Assembly: GCA_035627955.1 (NCBI GenBank) | Contig: DASPKU010000007.1 | Span: 248,001-312,000, forward strand | DNA: 64,000 nucleotides | Direction: 5' to 3' | Source: Phycisphaerales bacterium | Lineage (GTDB): Bacteria > Planctomycetota > Phycisphaerae > Phycisphaerales > UBA1924 | Part shown: positions 1,864 to 60,950 of the stretch, piece by piece | Layout of the letters: each line of letters opens with the position of its first letter | How positions within the stretch are numbered: position 1 is the first letter of the stretch | Made by a program: the position numbers and the translations under genes | The notes under the pieces: generated by a model | What the model was told of the DNA's origin: nothing | The model's database searches: none | Seen by the model: only the letters and a program-made list of their open reading frames with translations

Positions 1864-3129
1864 ATGCTCTGGCAACCGCCCCTCCCAGAGTCCTACACGA
1901 AGATGACGCCGGAGAACCTCGCGGCCGCGATCTCGACGCGGCGGCGGGAGCTGGGCGACCAGCTGGTCATTCTGGGGCACCACTACCAGACCGACGAGGT
2001 CATCCAGCACGCCGATATCACCGGCGACTCGCTCAAACTCTCGCAGCAGGCAGCGCTTGTCGCCGCCAGCGGGAAGGTGAAGTACGTCGTGTTCTGCGGC
2101 GTGCACTTCATGGCCGAGACCGCCGACATGCTCACGCCCGAGGAGGTCGCGGTGATCCTGCCCGACCTGTCGGCCGGCTGCTCGATGGCCGACATGGCCC
2201 AGTACGACGACACCGTGCAGGCGTGGGAGGACATCCACGCGAGCCTCGCCGAGCAGGGGTGGAAGGGGACCATCGTCCCCATCACCTACGTGAACTCGTC
2301 CGCGGCCATCAAGGCCTTCGTGGGCGAGCACGGCGGCGCGTGCTGCACCAGCAGCAACGCGGGCGAGGTGTTCCGGTGGGCAATGAGTGGCGGGACCACC
2401 GGTCGGGAGACCGGTGCCACCCAGGACATCAAGGTCCTCTTCCTGCCCGACCAGCACCTGGGGCGCAACACCGCCTCCGCTTACGGCATTGATACGAAGG
2501 CCCACACCTGCCTCTACGACCCGCGCCTGACCCGGCGCGGCCACGCGCTTGGCGGGGCCACGCCCGAGCAGCTGCTGGCCTCGAAGGTCATCCTGTGGGC
2601 GGGCCACTGCTCGGTGCACAAGCTCTTCCGCCCCGAGCACTGCGACCAGATCCGCGCTGAAAACGCCGCCAACCCTGACGCGGAGCCCACCACGATCCTC
2701 GTGCACCCCGAGTGCGCGAAGGAGGTGGTGGACAAGGCCGACCTTGCGGGCTCGACTGAGTTCATCATCCGCACCATCCGCGAGGCCTCAGTCGGCTCGC
2801 GCTGGGCCATCGGCACCGAGGTGCACCTGGTGGCGCGCCTGGCGAAGGAGGCCGCGGCCAGGGGCGTGGCGGTGCGGATCCTCAGCGACTGCCAGTGCCT
2901 GTGCACGACGATGTACCGCATCGACCAGCCGCACCTGCTGTGGGTGCTGGACAACCTCGCGGGCGACTCGGCGGGGCGCGACCCCAAGATCAAGAAGCCG
3001 AAGGTCGTCAATCAGGTCAGCGTGCACCCCAAGGTGCGCGAGCTGGCGCTGCTGGCGATCGACCGCATGCTGGCGCACGCCGGCAGCGGGAGCGTCAAGG
3101 CAGGGCCCACAACGGGCGCGAGGGCATAG
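1864..3129 (+). CDS. nadA: Quinolinate synthase NadA
   Basis: A 421-residue [4Fe-4S] enzyme condensing iminoaspartate with dihydroxyacetone phosphate to quinolinate in NAD biosynthesis. Family motifs run in order: ILGHHYQTDEVIQHADITGD, VVFCGVHFMAETADML, LPDLSAGCSMADM, ILWAGHCSVH, HPECAKEVV and SDCQCLCTTMYRID. The cysteines in FCGVH, GHCSVH and QCLC are the expected cluster ligands. Length is slightly above the usual 310-380 because of an N-terminal extension and a C-terminal Gly/Ala tail. The ATG at 1864 is preceded by TACAAT at five bases and no Shine-Dalgarno site. No nadB or nadC lies nearby. Confidence 0.97.
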   Translation: MLWQPPLPESYTKMTPENLAAAISTRRRELGDQLVILGHHYQTDEVIQHADITGDSLKLSQQAALVAASGKVKYVVFCGVHFMAETADMLTPEEVAVILPDLSAGCSMADMAQYDDTVQAWEDIHASLAEQGWKGTIVPITYVNSSAAIKAFVGEHGGACCTSSNAGEVFRWAMSGGTTGRETGATQDIKVLFLPDQHLGRNTASAYGIDTKAHTCLYDPRLTRRGHALGGATPEQLLASKVILWAGHCSVHKLFRPEHCDQIRAENAANPDAEPTTILVHPECAKEVVDKADLAGSTEFIIRTIREASVGSRWAIGTEVHLVARLAKEAAARGVAVRILSDCQCLCTTMYRIDQPHLLWVLDNLAGDSAGRDPKIKKPKVVNQVSVHPKVRELALLAIDRMLAHAGSGSVKAGPTTGARA

Positions 3130-16778: not shown

Positions 16779-16840
16779 CGCTCTCCGACTTCCGACTTCC
16801 GACTTCCGACTTCCGACTTCCGACTTCCGACTTCCGCCTC
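16779..16840. repeat. Tandem 7-bp microsatellite (CGACTTC)n
   Basis: Seven to eight units of CGACTTC lie between rpoN and recR. Looser versions of the same CTTCC-rich repeat occur at 24540-24600 and 56697-56753. Confidence 0.8.
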
Positions 16841-56623: not shown

Positions 56624-56696
56624 CTGGGGAGGGGTTGGCGAACGACTTATGGTGCGCGCAGAACACCTCTCGCCGAAATCCCACATCCCACATCCC

Positions 56697-56753
56697 ACAT
56701 CCGCCTTCCGCCTTCCCACTTCCCACTTCCCACTTCCGACTTCCGACTTCCAA
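56697..56753. repeat. CTTCC-rich tandem repeat
   Basis: Units of CCGACTTC and CCCACTTC repeat between the DUF1634 gene and surE, related to 16779-16840. Confidence 0.6.
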
Positions 56754-57812: not shown

Positions 57813-58838
57813 ATGCGGACCACACTCGCCCTGACCCTCGCCGCCCTTGGCGCACCAGCCCTTGCCCAGACCACGGCGACATGGATCAACCCCGCGGGCG
57901 GCTCGTTCGGGAACCCCGCCAACTGGAGCACCAACGCCGTGCCCGGCCCCCAGGACACCGCACGCGTCGACCTCCCCGGCACCTACACCATCACGCTCGA
58001 CGCCGACCGCGCGATCGACACCCTCATCATCGCAGCCGGCCAGCCCACCCTCGACCTCGACACCCGCACCCTCACCACCCGAATCCGCCAGGACGCCGGC
58101 CTCGCGCGAATCACCAACGGCACCACGCGCGGCCGCCTGGATATGAACGGCGGGAACCTGGTCATCGAACCGAGCGCCGCCTGCCGCTCGGCGCTGCTCA
58201 CCCAGACCGGCGCGGGCATCTACCTGACGGGGACTTCCCAGCTCACCGTGCGCGGCCTGCTGAGCCACACCTTCCCGGGCGATTACGGCCACCTCACGGT
58301 CGACCCCGCCGCCTCCATCCGCATCGAGAACAACGCCACCGTCAACGCCTACTACGTCAACGTCTACGGCGTGATGCAGCTCCTCGGCGGCAACCTGTAC
58401 TACGACACGCTCGACACCTATGGCTTCATTGTCGCCGAGGGCGGCACCATCGGCGGCACCCTCCAGGTCTCCCTCCGCCACGGCACCCGCCTGACCGTCG
58501 GCGAGCGCATCCCGCTGATCACCCGCGGCAACAGCCCCATCAGCGGCGCCTTCGACGAAGTAATCATCCCGTCAGGCAACGACATCCCCGGCTATGTCCT
58601 CCAGCTCTCCATCACCCCCGACGAGGTCGCCCTTGACGTTCTCGGCGCCCCCTGCGTGATCGACTTCAACCACGACGGCGACCACGCCACCGACCAGGAC
58701 ATCGAGGACTTCTTCGCCTGCCTCGGCGGCCGCTGCTGCCCCACCTGTTCATCCGCCGACTTCAACGGCGACGGCGACACCGGCACCGACCAGGACATCG
58801 AAGCCTTCTTCCGCGTCCTCGGCGGCGGCAACTGCTGA
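57813..58838 (+). CDS. Secreted beta-helix-like protein with dockerin tag
   Basis: A 341-residue exported protein. The signal peptide is LALTLAALGAPALAQ. The body begins WINPAGGSFGNPANWSTNAV, a G-NWS motif frequent in autotransporter- and PEP-CTERM-type right-handed beta-helix proteins. Repeated Thr/Leu strands follow (IDTLIIAAGQPTLDLDTRTL, GRLDMNGGNLVIEP). The tag is DFNHDGDHATDQDIEDFF, slightly altered, and DFNGDGDTGTDQDIEAFF. No enzyme motif. It is followed by a tandem 117-bp repeat array that includes its own 3' end. Confidence 0.82.
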   Translation: MRTTLALTLAALGAPALAQTTATWINPAGGSFGNPANWSTNAVPGPQDTARVDLPGTYTITLDADRAIDTLIIAAGQPTLDLDTRTLTTRIRQDAGLARITNGTTRGRLDMNGGNLVIEPSAACRSALLTQTGAGIYLTGTSQLTVRGLLSHTFPGDYGHLTVDPAASIRIENNATVNAYYVNVYGVMQLLGGNLYYDTLDTYGFIVAEGGTIGGTLQVSLRHGTRLTVGERIPLITRGNSPISGAFDEVIIPSGNDIPGYVLQLSITPDEVALDVLGAPCVIDFNHDGDHATDQDIEDFFACLGGRCCPTCSSADFNGDGDTGTDQDIEAFFRVLGGGNC

Positions 58839-58903
58839 ATAGGAACCGCGACCGTAAGGGAGCGATACGGCCGCACCTCGCGGCCGTGCGCCTCTCGCCC
58901 GTG

Positions 58904-58929
58904 CCACCGAGATGTCCTCATCTCGGTGG
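58904..58929 (+). repeat. Palindrome B, array copy 1
   Basis: CCACCGAGATG and CATCTCGGTGG around TCCT. Part of the 117-bp array. Confidence 0.7.
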
Positions 58930-59020
58930 TCCTCCTCGGTGGCGTCAACTGCTGAATAGGAACCGCGACCGTAAGGGAGCGCTACGGCCGCGCCTCGCGG
59001 CCGTGCGCCTCTCGCACGTG

Positions 59021-59046
59021 CCACCGAGATGTCCTCATCTCGGTGG
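59021..59046 (+). repeat. Palindrome B, array copy 2
   Basis: Identical to the copy 117 bases upstream. Confidence 0.7.
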
Positions 59047-59142
59047 TCCTCCTCGGTGGCGTCAACTGCTGAAATAAGAACCGCGACCGTAAGGGAGCGA
59101 TACGGCCGCGCCTCGCGGCCGTGCTCCGTGCTCCTCACCGCA

Positions 59143-60858
59143 CTAACACCCCTCCCCCACCACCGCCCGCAAAAACCCCTCCACATCCCCCCGCGTCCCC
59201 TCCACCCCATCGCCATCCGCGTCCGTGCTGCACGCATCGCAGCACCGCCCCGCAAGGCACGCGAAGAACGCCTCCACGTCCGCCTCGTCACCGTCAACGC
59301 CGTCGCGGTTCACATCGCTCTCGCACCGGCGCGCCGCCCGCTCGATCTCACCCCACATCAGCCCCGCCAGCGCATCCGCCCCCGCCCGCGACAGGTGCAG
59401 GTCGAACGCCACCGACAGCACCCGCGCCCCCTTCTTCCACGCCCCCGGCACGCCCTCCAGCCCCGCCGCGGTCACCGCGGTCGGCCGCGCCAGGAACCAC
59501 CGCGGGCCCTCCGACACCCACACCTCTCCGTCGAGCCCCCCGGTGCTGCTCAGCTGCATCACGCCGCCGCTGCCCGCCTTCGTCACCGCCGCCTCCGCCT
59601 GCCGGAAGTACCACGCGCTGCTGAACGCCCCGCCGCGGCTGCCCCCCAGCGCCGCCAGGTTCACCACCCCACACCGCGCATCACTCTGACAAATCTCCCA
59701 GAGCCGCGCCGCCCGCGTGAGCGCGAACCGGTCCGGCGGCGGCAGCGAGCACGAGTACATTCCCACCAGCAGGAACCACGGCTCGCCCGCGCCGATGTCC
59801 GCCAGTGCCGCGCGGTACCGCGCGATGATCGCCCGCACGTTCTCGCGGTACACCGCCGTCGTCGCGCCATCCTCCGCCTCTCCGGGCGCAACGTTCACCC
59901 CCAGCGCAATCACCACCACCGGCGTAACCCCAGCATCCGCGAACCCGAACACGCGCAGGTGCTCGCGCAGCCCCTCGTCGCTGTACCCCCGCCCCTCGCC
60001 TTCCACGCGCAGGTGGTCCGCCGTGGTCCACCCTCCCTGCGCGATCGAGTGCACCTGCAACCCGCGCACGCCGGGGTCATAGAAGATCACCCCCGGCGTG
60101 ATCAGCGCCGACCTTTCGCCGCCTTCGGCCCTCAGGCCGACATTCACCGCATCCCGCGCACGATCAAACGGCGCCCGCAGCAGCGATCCCACCTCGAAGT
60201 CCATCCACGTCCACCCCGCACGCTGCTTGTCCACCTCGCTCAACGCCCCCTCCACGCTGAACCCGCGCCCCGAGCTCACGCGCACACCCACGCGCTCCAC
60301 CGCATCGGGCCCCGCGTACACCACCGCCCGGGCCCGCAGCCGCTGGCTCGCCAGCAGCTGCTGCGACGCCCGCGTCCCGCCCGCGTGCGCCAGCGGGAAC
60401 AGCCGGAAGTCGGCCCGTGCCGCGCCCGCGTCCGCACCCGCGTGCAGCCGCCACTCCACCGCGTTCTCGGTCGCGAACCCCTTCACACCACCCGGCCACT
60501 CCTCTTCCAGCGCCATGTGCAGCACCCGCTCCTCCGAGTCCGCATGGTCGTAAGCCGAGCTGCCAACCCCCCGCGTCAGCTCCAGCCCGCCAGGAACGAA
60601 CCCAGGCGCCGGGCAGTACACCCCGCGCCACGCCCGCGGCCTCCACACCCGCTGCATCCCCGCCGCCAGCGGCGTATGCCCCAACCCCCCCACATCACCC
60701 ATCGTGTTCACCGACAGGCTGTCGCCCACCACCACCACCCGCGTGTCGCCCTCGGTAAGCGCCCGCGCCAACCCGCGCGGCACAAACGCCGCGGGCGCAA
60801 CAGGCTGGGCCATCGCAGCGCCGGTCACCAGCAACGACACCACCGCGAGTGGTCTCAT
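59143..60858 (-). CDS. Secreted SGNH/GDSL hydrolase-like protein with degenerate dockerin tag
   Basis: A 571-residue exported protein. Signal peptide MRPLAVVSLLVTGAAMAQ. TRVVVVGDSLSVNTMGD is block I of the SGNH fold with Ser 47. VVVIALGVNVAPGEA is the block III Gly-x-Asn region. DLHLSRAGADALAGLMW supplies block V His. Long beta-rich inserts separate the blocks. The C-terminus DVNRDGVDGDEADVEAFFAC and DADGDGVEGTRGDVEGFL keeps the two-repeat plan with CC..C but has lost the GTDQD signature. An esterase on glycans is likely by family. Confidence 0.82.
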   Translation of the reverse strand: MRPLAVVSLLVTGAAMAQPVAPAAFVPRGLARALTEGDTRVVVVGDSLSVNTMGDVGGLGHTPLAAGMQRVWRPRAWRGVYCPAPGFVPGGLELTRGVGSSAYDHADSEERVLHMALEEEWPGGVKGFATENAVEWRLHAGADAGAARADFRLFPLAHAGGTRASQQLLASQRLRARAVVYAGPDAVERVGVRVSSGRGFSVEGALSEVDKQRAGWTWMDFEVGSLLRAPFDRARDAVNVGLRAEGGERSALITPGVIFYDPGVRGLQVHSIAQGGWTTADHLRVEGEGRGYSDEGLREHLRVFGFADAGVTPVVVIALGVNVAPGEAEDGATTAVYRENVRAIIARYRAALADIGAGEPWFLLVGMYSCSLPPPDRFALTRAARLWEICQSDARCGVVNLAALGGSRGGAFSSAWYFRQAEAAVTKAGSGGVMQLSSTGGLDGEVWVSEGPRWFLARPTAVTAAGLEGVPGAWKKGARVLSVAFDLHLSRAGADALAGLMWGEIERAARRCESDVNRDGVDGDEADVEAFFACLAGRCCDACSTDADGDGVEGTRGDVEGFLRAVVGEGC

Positions 60859-60950
60859 GGTTGCGGCTCCAGCCCAGAACGGGTGCACCGATCATGGCCC
60901 GCGCGCACAACCCCGCATGAGGCCCGCCGAAACCCCTCGCTCACCGGGTG

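Follow-up and report, generated by a model that had tools for sequence, protein, structure and literature searches.

The window analysed here, a stretch of 64,000 nucleotides from contig DASPKU010000007.1 of a Phycisphaerales bacterium, carries a tandem array between two convergent genes (Table 1). TRF delimits the array at 58816-59124, with a period of 117 bp, 2.6 copies and 95% matches, and its score (567) is the highest of the 24 TRF rows in the window. The first bases of the array still belong to the final codons of the gene at 57813-58838. The product of this gene, P0001, is presumably dockerin-like, a label that we take from its motif alone: neither Pfam nor NCBIfam gave a family match at E≤0.01, its C-terminal 65 aa have no dockerin match in Pfam at E≤10, and it falls outside the dockerin type I profile. 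Neither flanking gene matched a dockerin profile when both were compared with Pfam and the first gene alone with NCBIfam. The DNA pattern for DQDIExFF has 300 matches in the same genome, and the 100 that were listed are mostly paired about 100 bp apart; we estimate that some 150 genes of this genome end in the two-repeat tag TDQDIExFFRVLGG..C-stop. A contig search for relatives of P0001 gave no confirmed match. The matches to the host gene listed outside its own genome cover N- or C-terminal parts only (27-54% identity), which made an empty-site comparison impossible, and none of the genomes returned belongs to the same genus, so that insertion and amplification were not directly seen.

Table 1. 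Features of the array and its flanking genes (positions in the window), and the arrays at locus L329 of genome G400.
Feature	Position	Strand	Remark
341-aa protein with two C-terminal dockerin-like repeats (TDQDIExFF..LGG..C-stop)	57813..58838	+	origin of the duplicated 3' end
Unit 1 of the 117-bp array	58816..58932	+	its initial 23 bp belong to the gene itself
REP-like A copy 1, foot TAGG and hairpin 1 (CCGC GA CC GTAA GG GA GCG)	58840..58864	+	C7:306844
A copy 1, hairpin 2 (GC-rich palindrome)	58867..58887	+	
REP-like B copy 1, GTG foot and 11-bp hairpin, loop TCCT	58901..58929	+	
Unit 2 of the array	58933..59049	+	5/117 differences from unit 1
Copied gene 3' end, 24 bp	58933..58956	+	92% to 58816-58839, non-coding
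REP-like A copy 2, foot and hairpin 1	58957..58981	+	
A copy 2, hairpin 2	58984..59004	+	
REP-like B copy 2	59018..59046	+	
Unit 3, partial (gene-end copy and A, without B)	59050..59124	+	
Second copied gene 3' end	59050..59073	+	
REP-like A copy 3, foot TAAG and hairpin 1	59075..59099	+	
A copy 3, hairpin 2	59102..59122	+	
Convergent neighbour, sub-threshold GDSL-hydrolase match	59143..60888	-	dockerin-like C-terminus (motif only)
L329 (G400) arrays	594-1426 and 1962-2329		55 bp, 15.1 and 6.7 copies

The first-pass annotation had described two exact periods and part of a third behind the gene, each with a repeat A, a palindrome B and a copy of the last codons. The array is real, as detected by TRF, but its periods are not exact, since 5 of the 117 positions are not the same in units 1 and 2. 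Gene end, A and B are all present in both of these units, which bears out the claim that the three were copied jointly, but the partial unit 3 stops after A and lacks palindrome B. Compared with unit 2, unit 3 has one inserted base and three substitutions across ~77 bases. All three A copies and both B copies lie on one strand, in the same orientation. The gene-end copy has 2 mismatches in 24 bp and reads ...GGVNC-stop where the gene reads ...GGGNC-stop; no reading frame of the gene enters it because it comes after B.

An origin of the array by chance is excluded. We also regard it as extremely improbable that the array is an artefact of the assembly, even if the latter comprises 23 contigs and a 117-bp repeat is near the length of short reads. 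A simple assembly duplication is unlikely because the copies differ from one another, units 1 and 2 at 5 of 117 positions and unit 3 by its inserted base and its different end, and similar tandem runs are present at other loci and in other genomes. A tRNA scan of the window found none. The window also contains tandem repeats of two heptamers, at 16784-16836 (TCCGACT, 7.6 copies) and 56679-56751 (TCCCACT, 10.4 copies).

Dispersal and structure of repeats A and B

The core of repeat A has 60 matches in the genome at ≤3 mismatches, against one for the reversed pattern, and the consensus of its hairpin 1 is CCSC GA CC GTNA GG GA GSG. In this genome, the hairpin is usually followed by a GC-rich palindrome. 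The stem shows paired changes: among the 60 core matches, 25 have the exact core and 14 have both halves of the stem swapped from G-C to C-G, and the three single-mismatch matches, collected in this genome with no pairing filter, include no half-swap. The stem also occurs once with A-T and twice with a broken A-C, and unmatched stems were found in other genomes as well (e.g. G320 and G412). In a set of 37 hairpins (26 distinct), hand-picked from 84 that had all been gathered with a pairing filter, which by itself builds in the 92.3% of paired cells, the covariation score was 0.461 vs 0.120 in shuffles (0/500 as high) and at most 0.213 in slid controls. Four of the six pairs changed on both sides, a number also attained in 133 of the 500 shuffles; in 10 of the 26 rows, the outermost bases do not pair. 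A search of the contig collection with the long A pattern gave 0 matches.

The foot of A is TARG followed by AAC, and GTAG is found in some copies only. A coding stop on the same strand was detected near 31 of the 60 A sites and none was detected for 29. In total, 27 of the 60 sites lie 1-30 nt past a detected coding stop, and the TAA or TAG of A itself is the stop codon in 10 of the 60; among the 31 sites with a same-strand stop, two have this stop inside the hairpin and two are the later copies of the array. Stops on the opposite strand, detected for 28 of the 60 sites, are all at least 27 nt away. Convergent pairs of A, ~33-135 bp apart, occur in this and in other genomes, and elsewhere in this genome A also forms a tandem of three 58-bp copies, the first of which supplies a stop codon. 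A further repeat family was found at locus L148 (C21:114200-115640), right behind the stop codon of a dockerin-like gene, where three tandem units of ~36 bp with the palindrome GCACTCACTC-GTGAGTGC are followed by a lone palindrome that resembles hairpin 2 of A. The latter suggests that hairpins 1 and 2 of A can become uncoupled.

Repeat B consists of CCACCGAGATG-TCCT-CATCTCGGTGG. It has 109 matches in the genome at ≤3 mismatches and 0 for the reversed-pattern control, a count in which a few sites with odd loops are perhaps included on both strands, B being nearly its own reverse complement. Its foot is one-sided, because GTG directly precedes B in 74 of 81 sites (fetched loci, ≤2 substitutions, any loop) and the commonest triplet after it, TCC, follows in just 15 of the 81. 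B is also found in tandem elsewhere in the genome (45 bp, three copies). Both A and B adjoin many unrelated gene ends, and both have the dispersal expected of REPs, together with the proximity to gene ends where a gene was detected.

Transposases associated with the two families

The genome has nine Y1_Tnp matches. The A-type protein (C17:22034) belongs to a group present in 78 of 391 planctomycete genomes, and the B-type protein (C3:77465) to a clade present in 196 of the 391. Among the fetched transposase loci, the hairpin of each repeat was found at those of its own type only. The A hairpin, searched with a strict hairpin-1 rule that was fixed before the flanks were viewed (G081 excepted), is present at 11 of 30 A-type loci (27 matches, on both strands in 7 of the 11), with 0/30 in reversed controls and 0/30 at B-type loci. 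The B hairpin is present at 11 of 30 B-type loci, including that of this genome (54 matches across the 11 loci), a locus count that is partly post hoc since the GTGCCAC rule was set after viewing the flanks; it is absent from all 30 A-type loci and from reversed sequence. The strict motif was absent from 19 of the 30 loci of either type. At the level of genomes, the A hairpin occurs in 25 of the 391, of which 19 have an A-type gene, compared with 59 of the 366 others (Fisher 4.7e-10, or 1.8e-9 without this genome, both uncorrected for relatedness); no A-type transposase was detected in the other 6.

The two groups also differ in their signatures. A single frame contains the motifs H-u-H, W..HG and Y----Q at 14 of the 30 A-type loci and at none of the 30 B-type ones, the former being a lower bound obtained with a pattern that was set after the loci were viewed and is thus partly post hoc. 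The A-type protein at L179 in this genome has NHVH, WS and YVLNQQ. A-type proteins score under the NCBIfam cut-offs and over the Pfam Y1_Tnp cut-off. The B-type protein of this genome reaches 104 bits, above the cut-off of 80 of the NCBIfam REP-associated tyrosine transposase (RAYT), and its gene is flanked by GTGCCAC hairpins. Across the phylum, transposase genes flanked by the hairpin were found for both A and B, and in this genome A flanks them just as variants: among its three A-type transposases, L179 and L181 have variants of A, L180 has another repeat, and none has the exact A. In summary, A and B both behave like REPs, and each is linked to a separate clade of Y1 (HUH) transposases. 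These two clades are the likely movers of A and B.

Published excerpts place class 3 TnpA-Y1 in Planctomycetes, Acidobacteria and Proteobacteria, with flanking atypical structures and a CnGA foot (PMC6006769). The A-type enzyme resembles this planctomycete 'class 3' TnpA-Y1: as in the excerpted description (PMC6006769), it has H-u-H, W[TA] and Y----Q, and the flanking atypical hairpins may reach a high copy number. It differs from the same excerpts (PMC6006769) in that the foot in its own genome is ARGA instead of CnGA, that W[TA] is WS in L179, and that an exact copy of A was not seen beside an A-type transposase of its own genome. The CnGA foot is matched only in part, with CAGA at L267, CCGA at L266 and CTGA at L287, ACGA, GCGA, GTGA or AGGA at other loci, and ARGA in the window. 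The hairpin consensus for the repeats of class-3-like planctomycete transposases is a testable by-product of this analysis. At L180 (C2:106700-111000), a Y1 transposase gene lies amid several copies of its own hairpin repeat, CGAGCCCCGAACGAAGTGAGCGGG. The 9.1-Mb planctomycete genome G081, from a distant family, has 306 matches to the A hairpin and one match to the A-type transposase.

These associations bear on whether A is instead a selected RNA element, either a terminator or a stop-proximal hairpin, which would have been spread by gene conversion and not mobilised by a transposase. We find this improbable. It would account for the stop codons supplied by A or lying just before it, for the greater distance of those on the opposite strand, and for the paired changes in the hairpin. 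It is also consistent with the RNA folding of the array block, which is far stronger than that of shuffled sequence (z -6.66), and with the six hairpin-bearing genomes in which no A-type transposase was detected; listed under the same reading is the Rfam search of 58500-59500, which gave no family at E≤1. However, the same hairpin flanks and tracks class-3-like transposases in distant genomes, and the supply of stop codons is itself a published trait of REPs, as excerpted from PMC3733652. We thus favour the reading of A as a REP-like element served by a transposase.

Gene ends adjoining the repeats

The first-pass annotation saw in the array a trace of how tags may move along with repeats. This does not follow from the joint copying, given that the copied fragment is 24 bp long, non-coding and lies beside its source. 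The adjacent gene is the closest to this fragment among 79 sampled dockerin-like ends, by a narrow margin (18 of 20 bases, against 17 of 20 for the next ones). The search for other junctions between dockerin-like ends and A, which the annotation had proposed, gave a mixed outcome: a second one exists at C19:188264-188372, with a dockerin-like end, A and B in the same order as in the window, but A and B also adjoin unrelated ends. We saw A behind nine dockerin-like genes, in six of them at 5-6 nt past the stop. A is nevertheless not specific to dockerin-like genes, a possibility that we rejected because they precede only 8 of the 60 A sites (with the array counted once) and many sites follow other genes.

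If tags and A had been copied together between genes, the dockerin-like ends that bear A might resemble each other. Some loci in the sample of 79 ends used in this comparison had been selected for their A repeat, the A match of one of the eight A-bearing ends is weak, and the gene at C19, whose A is a variant, was left out of the A-bearing group. Over 99 nt, the similarity among A-bearing ends was 0.748, compared with 0.717 for random ones, and 27% of 2,000 draws were as high; over the last 15 nt, 6.9% of random draws were as high, which is not significant either. Co-copying of A and the tag between genes is thus unsupported in these 79 ends. There is a hint of association in the final residues, since 6 of the 8 A-bearing ends finish in PC, compared with 19 of the 71 others. 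B lies within 140 nt of 10 of the 71 sampled dockerin-like ends without A.

Could the gene end, A and B form a mobile cassette that moves gene tags, with the array caught in transit? The second junction at C19, the spacing of 5-6 nt behind six of the nine dockerin-like genes and the PC endings are in line with this idea. Yet we deem it very improbable, because the similarity among A-bearing ends does not significantly exceed that among random ones, A and B lie behind many other genes, the copied piece amounts to ~8 codons that no frame enters, and A and B have separate transposase partners. A related scenario is likewise very improbable: two REP-type families from two different transposase clades and a gene 3' tag would have fused into a composite unit, which would be amplified and rarely re-inserted whole, such that C-terminal tags of the dockerin-like family would travel along with a stop codon and terminator hairpins of their own. 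Our conclusion is that the array reflects a duplication on the spot and not tags on the move, and we caution that copies of gene ends beside repeats are not evidence of mobile protein tags.

Relation to REP clusters and origin of the array

REPs offer close parallels to the array. In the available excerpts of the literature, clusters of REPs repeat in tandem with their flanking DNA and REP feet supply stop codons (PMC3733652), and in four cases the 3' end of a rayt gene, with the spacer from stop to REP, became part of a BIME (PMC2817692). As far as these excerpts go (PMC3733652, PMC2817692), A and B are like REP clusters and BIMEs in being short dispersed palindromes with a one-sided foot, found as singles, pairs or tandem clusters with flanks, and in lying near gene 3' ends, with a foot that provides stop codons and a gene 3' end within the unit. 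The likeness to a BIME with a captured gene 3' end, as excerpted from PMC2817692, extends to the copies at 58933-58956 and 59050-59073, which are in the unit along with the spacer to A; the caught gene is here dockerin-like, whereas in the captures excerpted from that paper (PMC2817692) it is a transposase.

There are also clear differences. Contrary to GTAG REPs, A has the foot TARGA and a hairpin 1 with facing GA steps and a GTNA loop. Both families are outside the GTAG and CGTC superfamilies of REPs, with feet TARG plus AAC for A and GTG for B, and we call them REP-like and not members of these superfamilies because GTAG (or GTGG) or CGTC is not their general foot. BIMEs are defined by regularly spaced REPs in alternating orientation, whereas every copy in the array faces in one direction and two families lie within one unit; the array is therefore a REP cluster and not a BIME. 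Convergent pairs of A recall REP doublets, and their likeness to REPINs, as these are presented in excerpts of PMC3116915, is one of arrangement only. The exact A hairpin may already be in figures or supplements of REP papers.

The array in the window is a local duplication of a REP cluster that caught 24 bp of a dockerin-like gene. Very probably, it arose as a REP-type cluster of two families served by transposases, in which the gene end, A and B were duplicated in tandem. A, with its two hairpins, would have inserted right after the stop of the dockerin-like gene, and B behind A; each family presumably depends on a Y1/HUH transposase clade (RAYT-like) of its own. A tandem duplication would then have copied everything from the gene's final codons up to and including B. 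The most likely route is a slip during replication, or a misaligned recombination event, in which the gene end, CTCGGCGG, would have been mistaken for the right arm of B, CTCGGTGG, which it resembles. At the junction in the array, an extra TCCTC separates the arm of B from the copied gene end, which shows that this was not one clean slippage. Alternatively, the duplication might result from the single-strand process, of whichever kind, by which REP clusters form. The array would later have diverged through point changes, with a last unit that lacks B. Its strong DNA and RNA hairpins between convergent gene ends may also act as a terminator or shield the 3' end of mRNAs.

With this reading, an odd-looking array becomes a clear case of REP-type biology in Planctomycetes and one more example of a gene 3' end trapped in a REP array. 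Tandem duplication with capture of a gene end is a known type of event for REPs that is little described in this bacterial group. Tandem arrays of a REP with its flank, beside transposase genes, were found in three other genomes, with periods of 87 bp (3.4 copies), 55 bp (15.1 and 6.7 copies) and 96 bp (5.0 copies). The 55-bp arrays flank, on both sides, the transposase of locus L329, which is of the B clade and has one in-frame TAG.
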